Of a stretch of DNA of 64,000 nt, positions 20,518 to 58,937 are shown in pieces. The DNA comes from Gluconobacter sp. Dm-62 (GTDB lineage Bacteria; Pseudomonadota; Alphaproteobacteria; Acetobacterales; Acetobacteraceae). Each line of letters opens with the position of its first letter. Position 1 is the first letter of the stretch. The notes under the pieces were generated by a model. It was not told the origin of the DNA. It worked only from the letters and a program-made list of their open reading frames with translations, and did not search any database. The stretch is taken from assembly GCF_018256155.1 (NCBI RefSeq), contig NZ_JAERLY010000005.1:1-64000 (forward strand). Reading direction: 5' to 3'. The position numbers and the translations under genes were made by a program.

Positions 20518-20556
20518 TCAATCCCCATACAACGACGGAAATGAGAGCCCTTCGGT

Positions 20557-20669
20557 CTTCCTACGCCAGTATCAACTGGGTCAGGTTCAAAGGGTCGCCT
20601 CACCGTACAGTCAGTTTCCCGACAGCACCAATCAGCCTCTCAGTCCCTTAGGCGGGACCCCCCTGACGA
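20557..20669 (-). promoter_or_regulatory. TPP riboswitch (THI element)
   Basis: Read on the minus strand the leader contains all conserved blocks of the TPP aptamer in order: a GGGG-rich P1 strand, ACTGAGAGGCTG, GACCCTTTGAACCTGA, then GTTGATACTGGCGTAGGAA. It begins about 260 bp upstream of thiC and should shut down thiCOSGEFD when TPP is abundant. No strong terminator hairpin is obvious between aptamer and thiC, so translational control or a Rho-dependent stop is possible. Confidence 0.96.
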
Positions 20670-20812
20670 AATTCGATCGTGATGGAGAAACAGAAGAAAA
20701 TCAACAGCGGAAATGTGTTCCGTTCAGATATGAAATTTTTATCTGAGTAAAATACATGGATGAAGCCCAAGAAAGACAACCACAACTCCTCAGCAATGCT
20801 ATCCGCTTTAGA

Positions 20813-39826: not shown

Positions 39827-39901
39827 GGGCGCATAGCTCAGCGGTAGAGCACTACCTTGACATGGTAGGGGTCACAGGTTCAATCCCTGTTGCGCCCACC
39901 A
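39827..39901 (+). tRNA. tRNA-Val(GAC)
   Basis: 75-nt cloverleaf with encoded CCA: acceptor GGGCGCA/TGCGCCC, D arm GCTC-AGCGGTA-GAGC, anticodon stem CTACC/GGTAG with loop TTGACAT giving anticodon GAC, and T arm ACAGG-TTCAATC-CCTGT. Its 3' half forms the left copy of the 56-bp direct repeat bounding the genomic island; the tRNA is intact because the integrated copy restores the 3' end. Confidence 0.97.
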
Positions 39902-47162: not shown

Positions 47163-47885
47163 TTGAAATCTAAAAAAGCTCCGAGTAGTGAAATTGAACC
47201 TTCCCCGATGACCCCAGAAAAAATAAAACAAAATAAAATTAGTAATATTTATCCAAATATAGCGCGATTTTATCTTCGAATTAGTAACAACAAGCATGAC
47301 CAAATAAGGCAGGATAAAATAATAGAGAATATTAGAATGTCAGGATATTATATTGCTGCTATATACAGGGAAAAGCCATCTGGCCCATCCCCCGATCGAC
47401 CTGAATTGGGAAGAATGATCTCTGATCTCCAAGCAGGAGAACTAGTAGTCGCAGAAAAAATGAACCGTCTTAGTCACCTTCCATTGGGAGAAGCAGATAG
47501 GCTGGTTCAGGCTATCCGGCAGTATCGAGTTCGGCTTGTCATTCCCGGATTGGTAGATCTATCTGAAGTTCCATCCGAAACTGATGCCGTGATATATGGT
47601 GACTTAGAAGTCAAACAAGAGATGCTTCTACGACTTGCCCTACAAACCGCGCGGGAAAACTACGAAGAAATGAGGGCGCGTCAAAAACAGGGTATTGAGC
47701 AGGCGAAAGCCTCGGGGCGCTATCGCGGACGAAAACCAAACTATGAAGTGCACGAGCGCATTATCACTTTGCGCGAAGCAGGAAACAGCATCTTGGAAAC
47801 AGCGCGTTTGATAGACTGCAGTCCGAGCCATGTGAAAAAGATATGGCTTGAGTATGCCAGCGCAGCGTCTTTAGAAACGGCATAA
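47163..47885 (+). CDS. Serine recombinase (resolvase/invertase family)
   Basis: 240-residue site-specific recombinase. The catalytic domain begins ARFYLRISNNKHDQIRQDKII with the nucleophile Ser in RIS (about 42), continues with YREKPSGPSPDRPELGRMISDLQAGELVVAEKMNRLSHLPLGEADRLV, and ends in a Hin-type DNA-binding domain (RGRKPNYEVHERIITLREAGNSILETARLIDCSPSHVKKIW). The active-site loop differs from the Tn3 type (KMNRLSH instead of LDRLGRS). The first 35 residues are AT-rich in code and unusual; starts at TTG 47163 or ATG 47208 are both possible. Common on plasmids of acetic acid bacteria, probably in multimer resolution. Confidence 0.8.
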   Translation: MKSKKAPSSEIEPSPMTPEKIKQNKISNIYPNIARFYLRISNNKHDQIRQDKIIENIRMSGYYIAAIYREKPSGPSPDRPELGRMISDLQAGELVVAEKMNRLSHLPLGEADRLVQAIRQYRVRLVIPGLVDLSEVPSETDAVIYGDLEVKQEMLLRLALQTARENYEEMRARQKQGIEQAKASGRYRGRKPNYEVHERIITLREAGNSILETARLIDCSPSHVKKIWLEYASAASLETA

Positions 47886-48030
47886 GATCAAGCATTATCG
47901 AACCTTATGATTATCACTGTTCATAAAACGGTGGTTTTCTGGACTGTCTGGGCGGCTTGGCTTTTTCATCGCACGTGAGTAAGCGTTGCGTTAAGATGGC
48001 CGTCAAGTTTTCTATGTCCCGGTAATATAA

Positions 48031-48600
48031 ATGAAACAACGCATAGGGTACGCCCGTGTCTCAACGGACGACCAGCACCTAGACCTGCAACGCGACGCGC
48101 TCGTGCAGGGCGGATGCGACGTGATCTACGAGGAAGCGGCCAGCGGTAAGAACACGACAAGGCCGGAGTTGGAGCAGTGCCGTAAAGCACTGCGGGCTGG
48201 GGATACACTCGTCGTGTGGCGGCTCGATCGCCTTGGGCGTAGTTTGCCCGACCTGGTGCAGATCGTGACCGACCTAGAGCAGCACGGCATCGGCTTTGAG
48301 AGCCTGACAGAGAAGATCGAGACGGGCAGCGCAGCGGGCAAGCTGATTTTCCATGTGTTCGCGGCACTGGCCGAATTCGAACGTGGCTTGATCCGCGAGC
48401 GGACACATGCCGGCTTGGCTGCCGCCCGTGCCCGAGGTCGGGCCGGTGGCCGCAAGCCGAAGCTAGATGACCAGCAGGTAAAAGAGATCAAAGCCTTGCT
48501 GCGCGATCCCGATATTCAGGTGGCAGACGTGGCCCGCCGCTATGGCGTGTCGCGCACCACCCTTTACAAACACGTCGGCGTCATCCCGCCACGTCAATGA
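48031..48600 (+). CDS. tnpR: Tn3-family resolvase
   Basis: 189-residue serine resolvase with the classical YARVSTDDQHLDLQRDAL (nucleophile Ser about residue 10), DTLVVWRLDRLGRS, GSAAGKLIFHVFAALAEFERGLIRERTHAGLAAARARGR and C-terminal HTH (VADVARRYGVSRTTLYKHVG). It ends 9 bp before the methylase gene, so it may be co-transcribed. No tnpA or complete 38-bp Tn3 inverted repeats were found around it. It marks the left edge of a GC-richer block running to about 54625 and probably came in with it. Confidence 0.9.
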   Translation: MKQRIGYARVSTDDQHLDLQRDALVQGGCDVIYEEAASGKNTTRPELEQCRKALRAGDTLVVWRLDRLGRSLPDLVQIVTDLEQHGIGFESLTEKIETGSAAGKLIFHVFAALAEFERGLIRERTHAGLAAARARGRAGGRKPKLDDQQVKEIKALLRDPDIQVADVARRYGVSRTTLYKHVGVIPPRQ

Positions 48601-48609
48601 GGACATAGG

Positions 48610-50358
48610 ATGCTCGTAAAGTTAGATGCCGCAGGTGGCACACGCAGCAAGGACTCGCATAGAGCTGTTGCCGTACCTGCATGCCCAGTCATGGAGGCGA
48701 CTGAGGCGCTGGCGGCAGATGGGGGGCACGAGGCTCGGGGAGCCATTTTCACTCGCTCTGAGGTGGTGGACTTCATTCTCGATCTGGCCGGCTACACGGA
48801 GGATCAACCACTTCACGAAAAGCGGCTTTTGGAACCGTCATTCGGTGGCGGCGATTTCCTGTTGCCGATCATCGAGCGACTGTTGAGTGCGTGGCGAGCG
48901 GCTAGGCCGAACGGCTCTGCGGTCGAAGATTTGGCCGATGCAATCCGAGCTGTGGAGCTGCACCACGACACCTTTCGAGGTACACAATCCGCCGTTGTCG
49001 CTTTGCTCAAGAGGCAGGGGGTCAGGGCCAATGCGGCGACCACCTTGGCGGGATGTTGGCTGTCGCAAGGCGACTTCCTACTGGCTCCACTGGAGGGGCA
49101 ATTCGATTTTGTGGTGGGCAACCCGCCCTATGTTCGTCAAGAGCTGATTCCGGCGCCACTGCTCGCCGAGTACCGCCATCGTTACCTGACGATGTATGAC
49201 CGCGCCGATATCTATATTCCCTTCATTGAGCGGTCGCTGTCGGTCTTGACGAATGGAGGCAGTCTGAGTTTCATCTGCGCCGATCGTTGGATGAAAAATC
49301 GCTATGGTGGTCCGCTGCGAAGTCTCGTGGCCGAGCGCTTCCATCTGAAAATTTATGTGGATATGGTGGACACACCGGCGTTTCATTCTGATGTGATCGC
49401 CTACCCAGCCATCACCATCATTAGCCGTGAAACGCCGGGGGCAACGCGCATTGCTCATCGTCCAACCATTGACCGGGCAACACTGAACACACTGGCAGGC
49501 TTGTTACATGCGCCGACACTGCCGAAGGTTGCTGGGCCGGTGCGGGAACTAGCACGCGTGACCAATGGCTCGGAGCCGTGGTTGCTAGAGTCAGCCGACC
49601 AGATGACCCTTATTCGTCGCCTGGAAGGTGCTTTTCCTCTGCTGGAAGAGGCAGGGTGCAAGGTTGGAATCGGTGTCGCAACTGGCGCGGATAAAGCGTT
49701 TATCGGGGACTTTGAGACTCTTGATGTCGAGCTAGACCGCAAGCTGCCGCTGGTGACAACGAAAGACATCATGACCGGTGAAGTGCAGTGGCGTGGTCAG
49801 GGTGTCATCAACCCTTTTGCCGATTCAGGCGGGTTAGTCAGTCTTGATAAGTACCCGCGCCTGCGTCGTTATCTTGAGGCCCGTCGAGAGGCGATTGCGG
49901 GGCGTCACTGTGCGCAGAAAGCTCCTGCTAACTGGTATCGCACGATTGACCGCATTACCCCTGCGCTAGCCGCGCGGCCGAAGCTCCTGATCCCGGATAT
50001 CAAGGGAGAGGCTCACATCGTTTTTGAAAGTGGCGAGCTGTACCCTCATCACAACCTCTATTACGTCTCGTCAGACGAGTGGGATTTACGAGCCTTGCAG
50101 GCAGTGCTGCTGTCCGCCGTCACGCGTCTGTTTGTGGCGACTTATTCAACGAAGATGCGGGGAGGTTTTTTGCGCTTCCAAGCGCAATATCTGCGCCGCA
50201 TTCGCATTCCGCACTGGCTGGAAGTACCCGAACTACTGCGCCGTGAGTTGGCTGAGGCAGCCATTAAGCGAGACGTGCAAGCCTGCAACCAGGCTGCGTT
50301 CAAGCTCTACGGCCTGAATCACGAAGAACGATCTGCCCTTGGAGGCAACGGAGAATAG
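48610..50358 (+). CDS. PaeR7I-type N6-adenine DNA methyltransferase
   Basis: 582-residue gamma-type adenine methylase. Motif I region [15 protein letters not shown] (about residues 74-88) binds SAM and motif [12 protein letters not shown] (about 171-180) is the catalytic NPPY. The C-terminal half is the target-recognition region. The following gene encodes an endonuclease of the PaeR7I family, so recognition of CTCGAG is predicted. The stop codon is directly followed by the endonuclease ATG. The first 40 residues are poorly conserved-looking, so a start further in is possible. Confidence 0.88.
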
Positions 50359-51099
50359 ATGGCACTTGATCTTGTCAATCACGAACAGAAAGCCCGTGAT
50401 GCTGTAAAGGCATTTTGGGGGAACCGCGAAGCTGCGCGACAGAAGCAGGTTGAGTCCGGAAAGGCCGACCAGGGTGAACGCGCTGGCGTCACTGGTGGCA
50501 AGAACATGGATGGATTCTTGGCTTTGGTACTCGATATCATCAAGGCCAACGGGCTGGCGCATGCAGAGATCCACCAAAACAAAGCGATGCTGACCTTGCC
50601 AGGCTACTTCCGCCCGACAAAGCTATGGGATTTACTGGTGATCTACAAAGGTGAGTTGATCGCGGCCATTGAGCTGAAGAGTCAGGTCGGCCCATCGTTC
50701 GGAAATAATTTCAACAATCGAACCGAGGAAGCCATCGGGACGGCGCATGACCTCTGGACAGCCTTCCGGGAGGAGGCATTCGGTAAGCGGCCGCGCCCAT
50801 TCGTCGGATGGTTGATGATGGTCGAAGATGCTCCAGAATCACGCAGGCCCGTGCGCGACTCGTCGCCGCATTTTCCAGTATTCGAGGAATTTAAAGGAGC
50901 GTCGTACCTTAAGCGGTATGACTTGTTATGTCAGCGTCTGGTGCAAGAGCAGCTTTACACCACTGCTGCCCTCATCGCTGCGGAACGCAGCGCGGTGGAC
51001 ACGGGCGATTTCACTGAGCTGTCGCCGATGACCAGTCTTAGAACATTCGTTGCCGCGTTGGCCGGACACATTGCGGCTGAGGCGGCGCGGTTGGGCTAA
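50359..51099 (+). CDS. PaeR7I-family type II restriction endonuclease
   Basis: 246-residue endonuclease, the length of R.PaeR7[34 protein letters not shown] and the active-site region [43 protein letters not shown] (about 84-126) match the family; WDLL...ELK gives the PD-(D/E)XK metal site. PaeR7I and XhoI cut C^TCGAG, so this is the predicted site. The ATG abuts the methylase stop with no gap, so expression of both is linked. Confidence 0.9.
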
Positions 51100-51124
51100 T
51101 AGTCCTTGAAATCAAGGGAAGAGC

Positions 51125-53779
51125 ATGAGCGGACAGCACACCTACGCGAAATTCTGGCGCTGCGCGCTCCAGGTTAATCCTGTTGGCTACAACGGTACCT
51201 ATCGCGGAGCCGATCACGGATTGGATGAGGCTGGGTACAACCAAGAACTTCTCCAGAAATGCCTTGGCCTAGGCATCACGGTAGTTGGCTTAGCCGACCA
51301 CGGTAGCGTGGCCAGCGTGGATGCGTTGCGGGCGGTGCTTCAACCTCACGGGATCGTAGTGTTCCCTGGCTTTGAGATCGCCTCGAACGACAAGACTCAT
51401 TATGTCTGCCTGTTTTCGGAGGAGACGACGGGACAGCAACTCGAACGCTATCTAGGTAGTCTTGATTTACTTGATCCGGCGAATGGTGTCCGCCCGTCTC
51501 GATTAAGTTCTGAGCAGCTGGTTGAGAAAGTCGATCAGCTCGGTGGCTTCATCTACGCCGCGCATTGTACCTTAGATAATGGCCTCCTGAAGAACAGGCT
51601 CAACCACGTATGGAAGCTCTCCAAGTTGCGCGCCGCCCAGATTCCTGGGCCGATAGATGACTTGGCGAATGTGGAGGGCGGCTTCTATCGGAAGGTGTTG
51701 CTGAATAAGGACGGTGCCTACCGACGCGAGCGCCCCGTGGCTGTCATCAATGCCAAGGATGTTGCGAAGCCGGAGGACTTAGAAAAGCCGGGGGCTACTT
51801 GTCTCATTAAAATGACTCGGCCCAACTTTGCGGCATTCAAAGTGGCTTTCCTTGATCCAGGATCGCGCATCCGCTTGAATTCACAGCAGGCCGAAAGTCC
51901 GATTGGCAAGGTACTCCGCATGACCGTCACGGGTGGCTACCTGGATGGTGTTCGCGTGGACTTCTCCGATCACCTAAACACTGTCATTGGCGGTCGAGGG
52001 ACAGGTAAGTCAACCTTGCTCGAATGCTTGCGCTATGCCTTGGACTTGCCGCCCAAGGGCAAGCAAGCTTTGAAGCTTCATCAAGAGATCATCAAGGAAA
52101 ATCTTGGCCGGTCGGCGGGTCGGTTGGAGTTGGCGGTGGTATCGTCAGCTCAGAACGGTAAGCAGTACATAGTCTCAAGGCGTTATGGTGAGCCCCCGAT
52201 TGTTCGTGACCTGGACGACAACGTCTCCAGCCTTCTCCCGAGAGACTTGCTGCCGGGCATCGACATTTATGGGCAGAACGAGATTTATGAGCTAGCCCAA
52301 GACGAAACCAGCCGGGTACAGTTGCTGGATCGCTTCCTTCCACAGGACAGGGACTATGAGGCGAAGAGCGCTGACGTTCACCAACACTTGACCGATAGTC
52401 AGCGTACGCTCGCGAAGTCCTTGTCCGACCTCGATGACGTGAAGGCGCAAGTGGATCGTCTGCCGAAGCTGGAAGAGCAGCTACGCGGGTTTGAAAAGTT
52501 GGGCATCAAGGAGCGGCTGGCCAAGACTTCGTTGCTCGCCAGAGAACGGGAGATTGCCAAGAGTGCCACGGAGAGCGCGCAGTCTCTGCGGGATACCCTT
52601 GCAGTCTTTCGTGACAACTTACCCGATCTCACTTTCATCAGCGATGAAGCCCTCGAAGGTCTGCCAGACACTGCCGAGTTGGTTGCCATGCGCACGACAC
52701 TGGACAGGATCAGCCAAGGATTCACCGACCACCTGACTGCGATGACGGCTTTGTTGGACGAGGCGTCAGGTCAGTTCACCGCACAGCATCAGTCTTGGCA
52801 GCAGGCCATTCAAGGGCACGATGCGGAGCTGGAAAAGGCGCTTCGGACGCTACCTGCGGCGGCTGGCAAGAGTGGCCAAGAGGTCGGTGCAGCCTATCAG
52901 CGGCTCATGGGCGATATTGAGCGCATCAAGCCAATGAGGGCAAAGCTATCAATGCATGACCGGCAAGGCAACGCCTTGAAACAGGATCGACGCAATCTCT
53001 TGGCCGAGCTGTCCGACCTCAGGGGGCAACGCATTCAGGCATTGCAGAAAGCGGCGAAGCGCCTGAACAGACGGCTTGAAGGCAAACTCAAGGTCGAGAT
53101 CGTACCGGAGGCCGACCGTTCTCCGCTGCTGAACTTCCTGCTTGGGTGCAAGCTGGAAGGTATTGGGGAAAAGCGGTTGGCATGGATTGCAGAAGCCGAA
53201 ACGATCAGCCCGTTGTCGTTGGCGCAGTCGATCAAGAATGGTTCGACCGATGTTCAACTAAACTGGAGTGTCACCCAGATGGTGGCGGAGGCGCTGACCA
53301 AGCTCCAGCCATCGCAGCTCATGGAGTTGGAGGCGCTGGAGTTGGAACATCGGGTAGACATATTTCTGAACGTCGCTCACGGTCAAGCTGCCCCCGTGTT
53401 CCGCTCGCTAAACAAGCTATCGACTGGACAGCAGTGCACGGCCATATTGCACATGCTCCTGTTGGAGAACGCCGATCCTTTGCTAATGGATCAGCCAGAG
53501 GACAACCTAGACAACGCCTTCATCGCAGAGAGGATCGTTACCGAGCTGAGGGATGCCAAGACTAGTCGGCAGTTCCTGTTTGCAACGCATAACGCGAACA
53601 TCCCGGTTTTTGGTGACGCTGAGTGGATTGGCGTCTTTACTGCAGCAGAGAACCAGGGTTGCCTTGGGCTAGATGCGCAAGGGTCGATCGACGTCCCAGT
53701 GATTCGTGATCAAGTTGCCCGCATTCTGGAGGGAGGGCGTGATGCCTTCATCCAACGCAAGGAAAAGTATGAGTTCTAA
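51125..53779 (+). CDS. PHP-domain/SMC-like AAA ATPase (TrlF-like), R-M associated
   Basis: 884-residue ATPase. The N-terminus (1-250) is PHP-like: GLADHGSV (about 57-64), FPGFEIAS, AAHC; the usual first HxH metal pair is replaced by QVNPVGYN, so phosphoesterase activity is uncertain. A split ABC/SMC ATPase follows: Walker A GGRGTGKST (about 289-297), a long coiled coil (about 420-680), LSTGQQC signature (about 765), Walker B LLMDQPEDNLD (about 786) and an H-loop FATHN. Such proteins are found with restriction systems and suspected in DNA-end or phage sensing. It lies 25 bp after the endonuclease gene and is probably co-expressed, making a three-gene module. Mechanism unknown. Confidence 0.85.
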   Translation: MSGQHTYAKFWRCALQVNPVGYNGTYRGADHGLDEAGYNQELLQKCLGLGITVVGLADHGSVASVDALRAVLQPHGIVVFPGFEIASNDKTHYVCLFSEETTGQQLERYLGSLDLLDPANGVRPSRLSSEQLVEKVDQLGGFIYAAHCTLDNGLLKNRLNHVWKLSKLRAAQIPGPIDDLANVEGGFYRKVLLNKDGAYRRERPVAVINAKDVAKPEDLEKPGATCLIKMTRPNFAAFKVAFLDPGSRIRLNSQQAESPIGKVLRMTVTGGYLDGVRVDFSDHLNTVIGGRGTGKSTLLECLRYALDLPPKGKQALKLHQEIIKENLGRSAGRLELAVVSSAQNGKQYIVSRRYGEPPIVRDLDDNVSSLLPRDLLPGIDIYGQNEIYELAQDETSRVQLLDRFLPQDRDYEAKSADVHQHLTDSQRTLAKSLSDLDDVKAQVDRLPKLEEQLRGFEKLGIKERLAKTSLLAREREIAKSATESAQSLRDTLAVFRDNLPDLTFISDEALEGLPDTAELVAMRTTLDRISQGFTDHLTAMTALLDEASGQFTAQHQSWQQAIQGHDAELEKALRTLPAAAGKSGQEVGAAYQRLMGDIERIKPMRAKLSMHDRQGNALKQDRRNLLAELSDLRGQRIQALQKAAKRLNRRLEGKLKVEIVPEADRSPLLNFLLGCKLEGIGEKRLAWIAEAETISPLSLAQSIKNGSTDVQLNWSVTQMVAEALTKLQPSQLMELEALELEHRVDIFLNVAHGQAAPVFRSLNKLSTGQQCTAILHMLLLENADPLLMDQPEDNLDNAFIAERIVTELRDAKTSRQFLFATHNANIPVFGDAEWIGVFTAAENQGCLGLDAQGSIDVPVIRDQVARILEGGRDAFIQRKEKYEF

Positions 53780-53926
53780 GATGCTGCGTCAGGGGACTAC
53801 ATGAGGGATAGAGATGAACATGTGCGAGCTAGAGGGAACAGCATTCCATGGTTTCTGTGAAATGAGCAGTAGCTCATTTGCGAGAACAGCGTGGTTTTTC
53901 GCCGTTAAATTTTGTTTGGCGTGCAA

Positions 53927-54625
53927 ATGACACAATCAGCTTGGACCCGTGACGGTCGGCCGGTGGATGCGGCCGCCATCCCCAGCGCTGAGTGGGAGTC
54001 GTTGAAACAGGTCGCGCAGCTCGGCGACTTCATGATGCCTTGCTGCAAGGCACCAGCAGTGCTTAAGACCAGCATCAACGGCTTGCCGTTCTTCGCTCAT
54101 TTGTCGGACGAGTGCGGCACTGCGCCTGAAACGAAATGGCATAAGGCCGGCAAGGCGGCCGTGCTAGCCGCCTTGACCAGCATGGGCATCCAAGGTTGTG
54201 ATGAGGTGCCGGGCCGATCGCCGAGAGGCGATAAGTGGGAAGCCGATGTTCTCTTCTCAGTTTCTGGTCGTACCATCGTGATCGAGCTGCAACGCTCCTA
54301 TCAGCATCTGCGGGACTTCACGCGCCGACAGGAGCGGTACACCGCTTCGGCCGTCGAATGCTATTGGTTGGTCCGCCCGCAAACCTTTATAACCCTGGGG
54401 AAAGCCACGTCGCGCCTGATGTTGAAACGCGACTTCGGCAACGTGTTCCCACCCGGCGGTATCGGTACTGGCATGTTGCCTGAGCTACCGGTGGCGATGC
54501 TGGACACGGAGGGTGAGCAGTTGGTCCAGTTCGGCGAATTCAAGACGGCAAAGGTGCCGATATGGCTGGCCGGCATCCTCGACGGCGCTTATCAATATCG
54601 TCGTGGCTCCTGGAACCTTGGCTGA
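53927..54625 (+). CDS. CoiA-like competence/nuclease protein
   Basis: 232-residue protein with the CoiA pattern: a short Cys-containing start (MMPCCKAPAVLKTSINGLPFFAHLSDECG), the FFAH plus HKAGKAAVLAAL segment, then KWEADVLFSVSGRTIVIELQRSYQHLRDFTRRQERYTASAVECYWLVRP, whose D, E-X-Q and basic residues make a PD-(D/E)XK-like active site. CoiA helps natural transformation in Gram-positive bacteria; island homologues in Proteobacteria are of unknown role and could be defence nucleases. It begins 147 bp after the ATPase gene, at the right end of the GC-richer block. Start taken at MTQSAW; five codons more are open upstream. Confidence 0.75.
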   Translation: MTQSAWTRDGRPVDAAAIPSAEWESLKQVAQLGDFMMPCCKAPAVLKTSINGLPFFAHLSDECGTAPETKWHKAGKAAVLAALTSMGIQGCDEVPGRSPRGDKWEADVLFSVSGRTIVIELQRSYQHLRDFTRRQERYTASAVECYWLVRPQTFITLGKATSRLMLKRDFGNVFPPGGIGTGMLPELPVAMLDTEGEQLVQFGEFKTAKVPIWLAGILDGAYQYRRGSWNLG

Positions 54626-54779: not shown

Positions 54780-55176
54780 ACTCGTTCAGGGAACGACGTC
54801 GGAGCCATGAATCGAACGCGCCTTGCTCAATGGTACCAGACACAAGCGCTACCATGACTTCGACGGCATCTGGGACGCTGACCTGCACACGAGTTCCATG
54901 CAGTCGAAGGAAAAGGATGCAGCAGCTCCAAGTTGTCCGATTGTTGGCGTCACTGAAGGGACGATTACGCGCAGTGCCCTAAGCGTAGGTAGCCGCCATA
55001 ATCGCGGCATCCGGTCGAGGCGCCTCATCATAGTACCATCGGTTTTCGGCGCGAGCTAACTCGCTCTGCATCAAGTTTTCGCTTTTGAGACCATGTGTCC
55101 CACCATATTCCTTCAGAGCCTGATCGTGCATGAACAGCACCGCATCACGCTTCAGAAACTCAAGCAGATCCGGCAT
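54780..55176 (-). pseudogene. Doc/Fic-type toxin pseudogene
   Basis: The frame starts LLEFLKRDAVLFMHDQALKEYGGTHGLKSENLMQSELARAENRWYYDEAPRPDAAIMAATYA, a good Doc N-terminus, then meets TAG where Doc has Phe (YAFGI). The same frame continues GTARNRPFSDANNRT and ends with PDAVEVMVALVSGTIEQGAFDSWLR, the Doc C-terminus. The Fic motif HPFxxGNKR has become RPFSDANNR, so catalytic His is lost as well. Only point changes and no frameshift are seen. The antitoxin gene lies directly upstream. Confidence 0.85.
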
Positions 55177-55403
55177 CAGCGCTTGGCCAGCTCCTGAAGA
55201 ACATCAGCCTGCTCACGCAGTGTCTCACGCGCCATCTCCATCTGGCGCCCAAGCTTAAGATTGCGCTTCACGAGCTTGATGCCATCGGCCATTTCGACCA
55301 GCATGAGTTCCTGCCCGACTTCCAAACCAAGACGGATACGTGTTTCCGCCGGAAGGGTAACACCCAAAGAATTACCCTGTTTGCGAACGACGACCGTTTC
55401 TAT
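55176..55403 (-). pseudogene. AbrB/MazE-type antitoxin with altered start codon
   Basis: The reading frame IETVVVRKQGNSLGVTLPAETRIRLGLEVGQELMLVEMADGIKLVKRN gives a normal AbrB/MazE swapped-hairpin domain and a helical toxin-binding tail, but the codon where Met is expected is ATA (55403-55401) and no ATG, GTG or TTG precedes it before a stop. The first usable start, TTG at 55367, removes the first strand (63 residues left). Together with the dead Doc gene this points to a decaying toxin-antitoxin operon, although initiation at ATA cannot be excluded. Stop overlaps the toxin start. Confidence 0.65.
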
Positions 55404-57621: not shown

Positions 57622-57690
57622 ATGGATACCCCGCTGTTCATCTCCATTGCGACTTTTAACACGCTCGTAACCAAAGTGAGGGTAGCATGA
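57622..57690 (+). CDS. Possible 22-residue coupled mini-ORF
   Basis: ATG at 57622 to TGA at 57690, ending in ATGA overlap with the tail-fibre start at 57687 ([19 protein letters not shown]...). The overlap suggests translational coupling, but the product is tiny and may be only a leader. Confidence 0.25.
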
Positions 57691-58937
57691 CGACGGTTCA
57701 CAATCTGACCCCCTCCCCGCTGCGAACAATCGTTCTGCAGGGAAGCAATGGGACAGTCTCTCAGGTCATCTTCGCCCCAAAATCTTCTGCTGACTGTCTG
57801 GACTATACACTGGACTTCTCCGCACTTCTGGTCGGCACAGACGATACTCTGGCCGCGATCAAGTCGGCAACAGTCATCACGGGCCCGGGTGGAGACTATG
57901 CCCTTGCGATCATGTGGAGTGCCGTAGCAGGCACACAGCTGGTCATGTTTCTCGCCAGCGGTCAGCCGGATACGACCCAGAAAGTCCTTTTGGAAGTCAT
58001 AACTGCACAGGGTCGTGTCTACTCCGTGATGACTGCCCTTCAGGTCACGAACCTGACAGCCGCGACCGCCCCGCCATCGGACTTTCCAGCTGATACGCTG
58101 ACAAACGGTAAAGTCATGATCGCTGGCACTGCGGTGCTGCCGGCTGGCTACTCGGATAACGGGCAAGTGGTCATGGCGACAGAGGATGAGGCCCCAGTCG
58201 GCACGCCGGCGTTCGAGAGTGTCGCAGCGGAATCCTACTCCGGCGACGGATCAGGCCTGAATGTCACGTCCTCTGATAAGACCCAGACACTGGCGGAGTG
58301 GATGTCGAGCTCGGGCACAGCAGGGCCAGAAGGTCCCACTGGTCCCGTTGGCCCTGCCGGTCCTTTAGGTCCGCAAGGAGAACCCGGTCCGGCAGGAAAA
58401 GATGGTGCTACCGGACCTCAGGGGCCAGCCGGAGAAACAGGCGCGAAAGGTGACACTGGCACGACGGGAGCAACTGGCCCGCAAGGGTTACCGGGAGATA
58501 CTGGCCCAGTGGGGCCTGCAGGGCCAGCTGGCTCAGACGCTGACGTGACGGCTGACAGCATTAAGGCCGCGCTCGATTTCACGCCTGCAGATGCCGCTGA
58601 CACTCTTTCGCTCGCGAACGGCGGTATTGTTAAAGGCGGCGTAACACTGCAAGGCGGTGGGGCAACCATTACCTTCAAAGATGACGTTGGAAGTTATGTC
58701 TTCGGGCAGTGGTCCTACAACAAACTGACATTCATGGGCGGATCAAACGCGTGCTTCGTCTGGCCTGGCGCTATAGGGACGGCTTCCTACGCGTTTGCAG
58801 ACCTACCTTCCCCGGATGTGAGGGTCATGGCTTTTGTGACAGACAAATCCATCAACGGCGGCGCGCAAGGCGTCATGGCCGTGTGGAACCCGGACACAAA
58901 AGTCTGGACCGGAATGGGTGGGGAGACGCTGACATAA
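57687..58937 (+). CDS. Collagen-like phage tail-fibre protein
   Basis: 416 residues. The N-terminal 120 residues ([45 protein letters not shown] ... [14 protein letters not shown]) form a beta-rich fibre/tail adaptor domain; 210-284 is an unbroken run of 25 Gly-X-Y triplets, which should fold as a collagen-like trimeric rod; the rest is a C-terminal trimerising/receptor-binding part with [14 protein letters not shown] and a final [16 protein letters not shown] motif common in phage tail proteins. Isolated relic of a tail module, with no other structural genes beside it. It may still be expressed because promoter-side terminators and a ribosome-binding site are intact. Confidence 0.8.

Follow-up and report, generated by a model that had tools for sequence, protein, structure and literature searches.

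What is the gene for a large ATPase doing directly behind an otherwise plain restriction-modification (R-M) pair? The question is raised by a 64,000-nucleotide stretch of DNA from Gluconobacter sp. Dm-62 (contig NZ_JAERLY010000005.1, positions 1 to 64,000; hereafter the window), which is part of a 184.5-kb contig. Within it, a resolvase gene, a methylase (M) and endonuclease (R) of PaeR7I type and a gene for a TrlF-family ATPase follow one another. The restriction pair is by itself ordinary and known; the point of interest is the exchangeable accessory slot behind it and the place of TrlF in that slot. We propose, with moderate confidence, that the four genes form a mobile, resolvase-led defence cassette of two layers, in which a common R-M system is joined to TrlF as an exchangeable backup effector.

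A resolvase, an R-M pair and TrlF form one gene string

The four open reading frames (ORFs), which were called mechanically, are all on the + strand, separated by 9, 0 and 25 bp. The string begins with a 189-aa serine resolvase/invertase homologous to paeR7IN (48031..48600; PF00239 (Resolvase), 154.6 bits), followed by a 582-aa N6-adenine methyltransferase of the PaeR7I/XhoI type (48610..50358; Eco57I, 81.7 bits, plus TaqI_C), a 246-aa type IIP endonuclease of the XhoI/PaeR7I family with ELK at residues 105-107 (50359..51099; PF04555) and the 884-aa TrlF-family protein (51125..53779; NF045780, 548.3 bits). For all four, the profile or PADLOC scores are far beyond chance. An initial annotation of this DNA had described a block led by a resolvase, with methylase, endonuclease and a TrlF-like ATPase packed within 0-25 bp of each other, and both statements agree with the ORFs and the 0 and 25 bp gaps. 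Genome searches returned a single XhoI-family gene and a single TrlF.

Homology with relatives that share both ends (blastn) places the cassette at 47990..53796 on the + strand. On the left, the matches of loci L068, L010 and L009 all start at 47990, and that of L189 runs from about 47918; on the right, the L010 match stops at 53796 and those of most other relatives at 53777-53784. No border repeats of 11 bp or more were found at these edges. The same annotation had called the block GC-richer, which holds against the adjacent 47-48 kb (0.55-0.60 versus 0.44) but not against the 9-20 kb part of the window, where stretches of 0.575-0.649 equal or exceed it, so the cassette block is no distinctive GC island. 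Just upstream, in the AT-rich stretch (GC 0.44), lies a second, divergent serine recombinase (47163-47885; PF00239, 47.2 bits).

The R-M pair is predicted to recognise CTCGAG

The best PADLOC type II model for M was MTase_II (E 2e-278), NPPY stands at residues 171-174, and the protein is 88-89% identical to those of L188 and L068. R matched XhoI (PF04555) with 361.8 bits over residues 29-219 and its best PADLOC type II model with E 1e-135, and over its full length it is 93.5-94.3% identical to R on 22 plasmids, one of which is annotated paeR7IR. The whole resolvase-M-R stretch has about 79% DNA identity to the plasmid PaeR7I module, and this match ends at the R stop codon (window 51100). A PDB sequence search with R gave no match up to E 1. 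PaeR7I has the specificity CTCGAG (PMC3031569). Because R is about 94% identical to the plasmid PaeR7I enzyme, CTCGAG is a sound prediction for the recognition site of the window pair, as the initial annotation had proposed.

CTCGAG is also the scarcest of the 64 palindromic hexamers in the window (2 occurrences versus 12.5 expected). We rejected this as a sign of R-M activity on the element, since the rest of the genome gives the same rank: in 360 kb of other contigs (20 stretches, L105-L124) CTCGAG is again the most depleted, with 26 occurrences versus 71.6 expected. The genome-wide depletion hints at long exposure of the lineage to such enzymes.

TrlF joins a PHP-like fold to a Rad50/SMC-type head

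The window TrlF matches the curated model NF045780 (TrlF_fam_ATP) over residues 7-883 with 548.3 bits against a cut-off of 350. Its AlphaFold2 model (mean pLDDT 86.1, pTM 0.69) predicts an endonuclease Q (EndoQ)-like PHP fold fused to a Rad50/SMC-type ABC ATPase head with a coiled coil. The PHP-fold domain, closest to endonuclease Q, would comprise residues 1-255 (51125..51889, + strand), and the SMC/Rad50 head with its antiparallel coiled coil residues 260-873 (51902..53743, + strand). In a structure comparison (VIA-align), matches to SMC heads reached residue 873 or beyond of 884, and the model holds no further C-terminal domain.

In the head, Walker A lies at 289-297, the signature at 765-770, Walker B at 786-796 including Q790, and the His switch is H822, with a further glutamine at Q384. 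This ABC/SMC motif set is complete, K295, Q384, S766, G768, Q769, D789 and H822 being present in 75 of 75 family sequences. The glutamine in Walker B suggests a slow, switch-like ATPase.

By sequence, the PHP domain falls under the Pfam cut-off (15.3 versus 26.4 bits), yet it is clear from the predicted fold. A PDB sequence search with this domain gave sub-threshold PHP matches only, and hhalign of the PHP part against the PHP domain of DnaE gave a probability of 50 over 51 columns. The set of metal ligands is incomplete. In place of motif I, which we take to be HxH, stands Q16-V-N18, and in place of motif V, presumably DxH, stands N209-A-K211, while H59, E84, H92 and H147 are retained. The initial annotation was right about a coiled-coil ATPase with an altered PHP domain, but the alteration is not a peculiarity of this locus, an idea we rejected: almost all of the 75 TrlF sequences carry Q-x-N for motif I and N-A-K/R for motif V, and the PHP residues that are kept are near-invariant. 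In the part of the literature search results for TrlF that we covered, one paper was relevant, a study of temperature restriction (PMC7554251).

R-M and accessory parts are exchanged among resolvase-led cassettes

A locus from Thiomonas (L068) is colinear with window positions 47990-52449 at 84% DNA identity and has the order resolvase-M-R-TrlF, so the four-gene order is not unique to the window. The resolvase of the window is 89% identical at the protein level to that of L068, 89% to that of L189, a cassette with a PstI-type endonuclease, and 76% to that of L188. In the Thiomonas locus an insertion interrupts TrlF at residue 442; the product of the insertion, read from the translation, resembles an IS3-type integrase. 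Truncated or insertion-interrupted forms of TrlF occur in relatives L006, L027 and L068 and in matches H174-H176 and H178; such recurrent disruption would fit a costly gene.

Five other loci (L002, L008, L009, L010 and L027) share the resolvase region with the window, at 67-74% DNA identity over 463-607 bp, and in each of them homology resumes 0-17 bp before the ATG of TrlF. What lies between is an R-M system of another kind: type IIG in L002 (scanned) and in L008 and L009 (by clustering), type III in L010 and type ISP in L027. The co-occurrence of the ATPase with R-M genes, on which the initial annotation had made its proposal depend, thus recurs elsewhere, both in Thiomonas and with other R-M types before TrlF.

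The slot behind R varies as well. On the PaeR7I plasmids, a trio consisting of an 82-aa ORF, a 274-aa ORF and an Abi_C gene (PF14355, 50 bits) occupies the place that TrlF has in the window, and at least 80% of this 5-kb cassette of resolvase, PaeR7I and Abi trio is present in 21 plasmid records. The trio stands without PaeR7I in 5 of the 30 matches listed. In pPae-13 (L189), the one of these five that was examined, a resolvase, a methylase and a BsuBI/PstI-type endonuclease are followed by the trio, with 96% DNA identity to that of pRSB105. Since the Abi trio follows either a PaeR7I or a PstI-type pair, and TrlF follows varied R-M systems, the R-M and accessory parts vary independently. The cassettes consist of three parts, a resolvase, an R-M system and an accessory part, and the latter two are exchanged between cassettes.

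TrlF is found beside and within other defence systems

To place the window among its relatives, we compared 85 TrlF loci: 79 distinct loci (from the best 80 of 107 confirmed, one genome per species), 5 plasmid loci and the window. A gene for TrlG (about 413 aa) lies downstream of TrlF in 58 of the 85, and a scanned member has SLFN_AlbA_2 and HATPase_c_4 domains, in line with the SLFN_AlbA_2 and HATPase architecture reported for TrlG of Photorhabdus (PMC7554251). No SLFN_AlbA_2/HATPase gene was found downstream of TrlF in the window, where the next larger ORF is CoiA-like. In a tree made with quick settings and no bootstrap, the window TrlF falls in a clade of 20 rows (SH-aLRT support 100) in which no TrlG was seen, the sequence behind TrlF being missing or nearly so in rows L003, L011, L067 and L068.

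At least 3 kb of upstream sequence is available for 63 of the 85 loci. In 27 of these, the nearest upstream gene on the same strand (at least 180 aa, within about 600 bp) is a core gene of an R-M, BREX, Wadjet II or Hma-like system; a further BREX locus, L072, has two genes between the BREX gene and TrlF, which brings the total to 28, the type ISP fragment of L003 being left out. For some loci the labels come from direct profile scans; for the rest they come from blastp clusters that contain a scanned member or one named by its context. 'PglX-like' denotes an Eco57I domain beside PglZ and BrxL, except that L033 has such a methylase only. As controls we took ORFs more than 6 kb from TrlF (50 of 70 listed; nearly all of the 20 omitted touch the ends of the fetched stretches). 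No methylase or endonuclease family was among the 25 of 28 PADLOC families shown for them, which include BrxB with two members and JetD with one, so that, as far as shown, the contrast is at most 3 of 50 versus 28 of 63.

In several loci TrlF lies inside the operon of another system. In BREX loci, TrlF-TrlG is flanked by PglX on one side and PglZ/BrxL on the other: of the 11 loci where a PglX-like gene precedes TrlF, 10 have PglZ or BrxL behind it (L049, a BREX locus, yielded no TrlG ORF), and a Klebsiella grimontii plasmid carries brxL followed by TrlF without TrlG. Wadjet II loci have the order JetA2-JetB2-TrlF-TrlG-JetC2 (L058, scanned; L043 and L062, by clustering). A Citrobacter plasmid (L191) has TrlF-TrlG placed between the hsdS and hsdR genes of a type I system, with a TrlG 63% identical. 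A survey of BREX (2026) reports, for at least 1017 taxa that have BREX or related loci, RNases of the Schlafen type with a minimal histidine kinase (PMC12839542). A whole-word search of that survey found no mention of TrlF or PHP, and neither did a search for the two terms in one other paper.

A relative of TrlF, used in a tight search across the phylum, turned up in 2 of 398 genomes, and a class-wide draw gave TrlF above the cut-off in 12 of 385 genomes, the window's own included in both counts. Among phages, TrlF was found in two records of one Yersinia phage at 23% identity, and viral contigs held five distant TrlF loci, one with a distant TrlG.

In L036 (2109-7847), TrlF-TrlG is preceded by an HSP90-like protein (219.7 bits) and a 1247-aa ORF that matches no PADLOC model at E 1e-8, a set that is possibly an uncharacterised defence operon. 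In L026 (6373-8004), a 543-aa ORF overlaps the start of TrlF by 4 bp and has no Pfam match at E 1e-3 and no PADLOC match at E 1e-8.

The cassette resembles several known systems and equals none

The closest counterpart of the restriction part is the PaeR7I module of IncP-6/IncU and rep_cluster_429 plasmids (pRSB105, pVF2), which has the paeR7IN resolvase, M and R in identical order; the window differs in having TrlF behind R, where those plasmids have the two ORFs and Abi_C. By the curated model the ATPase belongs with TrlF-TrlG of the temperature restriction locus (TRL), but unlike the TRL operon (TrlR-TrlF-TrlG) the window has no trlG next to trlF, and we rejected assignment to that operon.

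Ppl is described as a solo system, an anti-phage protein that combines a PHP domain with an ATPase. TrlF matches its models (NCBIfam Ppl, 167.7 bits; PADLOC Ppl, 122.1 bits), but 167.7 bits is far under the Ppl cut-off of 1000, and this assignment was rejected as well. From endonuclease Q and other PHP-fold proteins on the one hand, and from Rad50/SMC heads on the other, TrlF differs in fusing the two and in its substituted PHP motifs I and V.

Like PrrC and RloC, the window TrlF is an ABC/Rad50-like ATPase linked to an R-M system, 25 bp behind R. PrrC is an anticodon nuclease inserted in the hsd region (so a 1990 reference title within PMC2610378) and a well-studied fail-safe: it is restrained by the linked restriction enzyme, which is always of type I, and freed by a phage anti-restriction peptide, while RloC lies at a type I or type III locus in 8 of 72 cases (PMC2610378). 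Unlike either, TrlF has an N-terminal PHP fold and, in the predicted structure, no nuclease domain after the SMC head. As the C-terminal anticodon-nuclease domain is missing, we rejected assignment to PrrC/RloC.

Other features of the window

Downstream of TrlF by 132 bp, and outside the cassette, lies a CoiA-like nuclease gene (53912..54625, + strand; CoiA_nuc, 30.1 bits, cut-off 20.3). The initial annotation had included it in a candidate composite defence system. We examined three relatives, of 70 matching plasmid records, and found no resolvase, M, R or TrlF in their flanks of up to 5 kb (tblastn). With neither TrlF nor PaeR7I-type genes beside these three, we rejected CoiA as a component of the cassette.

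Beyond it, 54979-55367 on the - strand encodes a MazE-like antitoxin (26.7 bits) and then a 65-aa ORF that has no Pfam match at E 0.01 and may be a shortened toxin partner. In translation, 57687-58937 gives a protein whose long repeats are rich in Gly and Pro and collagen-like. Elsewhere the window holds a TPP riboswitch aptamer (20541-20674, - strand) and its sole tRNA gene, tRNA-Val (39827-39901, + strand).

Discussion

The identities, order and spacing of the genes, the predicted PHP and SMC architecture and the exchange of R-M and accessory parts lead us to the following model. In a first layer, M would methylate CTCGAG and R would cut sites left unmodified. In the second, TrlF, encoded in the same gene string, would be a backup effector of the sort that PrrC provides for type I restriction. 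Abnormal DNA, either phage ends or breaks that arise when restriction fails or the balance of R and M is lost, would be engaged by the Rad50-like head, after which the PHP domain of TrlF, or a host partner in place of TrlG, would halt growth or phage replication. We favour a backup role because TrlF takes the slot of the Abi_C trio, because its relatives pair with a Schlafen-like protein, because the head is of the DNA-engaging Rad50/SMC type and because the Walker B glutamine suggests a slow, switch-like ATPase. That the effector would act by abortive infection is suggested by position, namely the slot shared with the Abi_C trio. With TrlG missing, proteins of the window clade would have to act through the PHP domain or a host partner.

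Several observations weigh against this model. The only other PaeR7I and TrlF set found, that of Thiomonas, has an interrupted TrlF, which is therefore not strictly needed there; the substitution of PHP motifs I and V makes nuclease activity doubtful; and the clade of the window TrlF lacks the Schlafen-like partner. Within that clade, R-M genes or a fragment precede TrlF in 9 of the 20 rows, and none are seen in the other 11, some of which lie at contig ends. TrlF was found beside none of the XhoI-family loci, neither the 7 from the remaining genomes of the phylum draw (398 genomes) nor the 9 on viral contigs, several of these 16 loci having little sequence behind R (less than 0.5 kb in L197; short contigs in L100 and L101). 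The link of TrlF is with R-M cassettes in general, and its co-occurrence with XhoI-type enzymes as such is rare. In the class-wide draw, the 12 loci from the 11 other genomes comprise one with an adjoining type III R-M system, three with TrlG and eight with neither, R-M genes being sought through a methylase motif and blastp against a few reference proteins. Lastly, the control ORFs also match CBASS cyclase, AbiEii and mads models, so TrlF neighbourhoods are rich in defence genes in any case.

These last two results would be expected if the cassette genes were independent passengers, gathered by the resolvase and a recombination hotspot on mobile plasmids, with TrlF self-sufficient and uncoupled from restriction. 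Plasmids of Xanthomonas citri, Acetobacter, Staphylococcus and Lactiplantibacillus carry TrlF without adjoining R-M genes, and the R-M, TrlF and Abi parts recombine freely. We nonetheless think this account rather unlikely: the position is specific, homology resuming 0-17 bp upstream of the TrlF start across R-M types, and TrlF-TrlG lies within, not beside, BREX, Wadjet II and type I operons, an arrangement that fits co-expression but is no proof of coupling. It is improbable that TrlF instead processes DNA ends, attacking in the manner of SbcCD/Mre11-Rad50 what R has cut and so blocking phage repair. With motifs I and V of the PHP domain replaced almost throughout the 75 sequences, a full metal site is unlikely, and TrlF also accompanies BREX, which is not known to cut DNA. 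In addition, TrlG, the partner, resembles Schlafen/AlbA_2 proteins, which are described as RNases (PMC12839542). Very improbable, finally, is a gene that mainly stabilises the plasmid or limits growth under stress, with phage defence incidental, even though trlF is named in a temperature-restriction operon of Photorhabdus (PMC7554251) and PaeR7I itself causes post-segregational killing (PMC3031569). Tolerant isolates in the Photorhabdus study were mutated in trlG (one in fur, and in some no mutation was found) but never in trlF (PMC7554251); trlG is absent beside the window TrlF, and the recurrent slot of TrlF inside defence operons points elsewhere.

Our preferred reading of TrlF as an exchangeable backup effector can, more tentatively, be widened. 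TrlF, with or without TrlG, may be a portable guard for nearly every defence that modifies or senses DNA (type I, IIP, IIG, III and ISP restriction, BREX and Wadjet II), in which an EndoQ-like PHP domain with an altered site, carried on a Rad50-like head, would detect failure of the defence or damage around it and trigger a second, abortive layer. It would often sit inside the host operon, and the guard and restriction slots of resolvase-led cassettes would be swapped independently.

The exchange of parts suggests that bacteria equip their restriction systems with backup defences that can be exchanged. Were the two-layer reading true, a PrrC-like fail-safe would extend to a plain type II system and several others, with interchangeable backups in one slot. 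It would also give TrlF a job and account for its presence within BREX, Wadjet II and type I operons. The one-slot pattern makes possible a direct comparison of TrlF and the Abi_C trio behind a constant R-M system.

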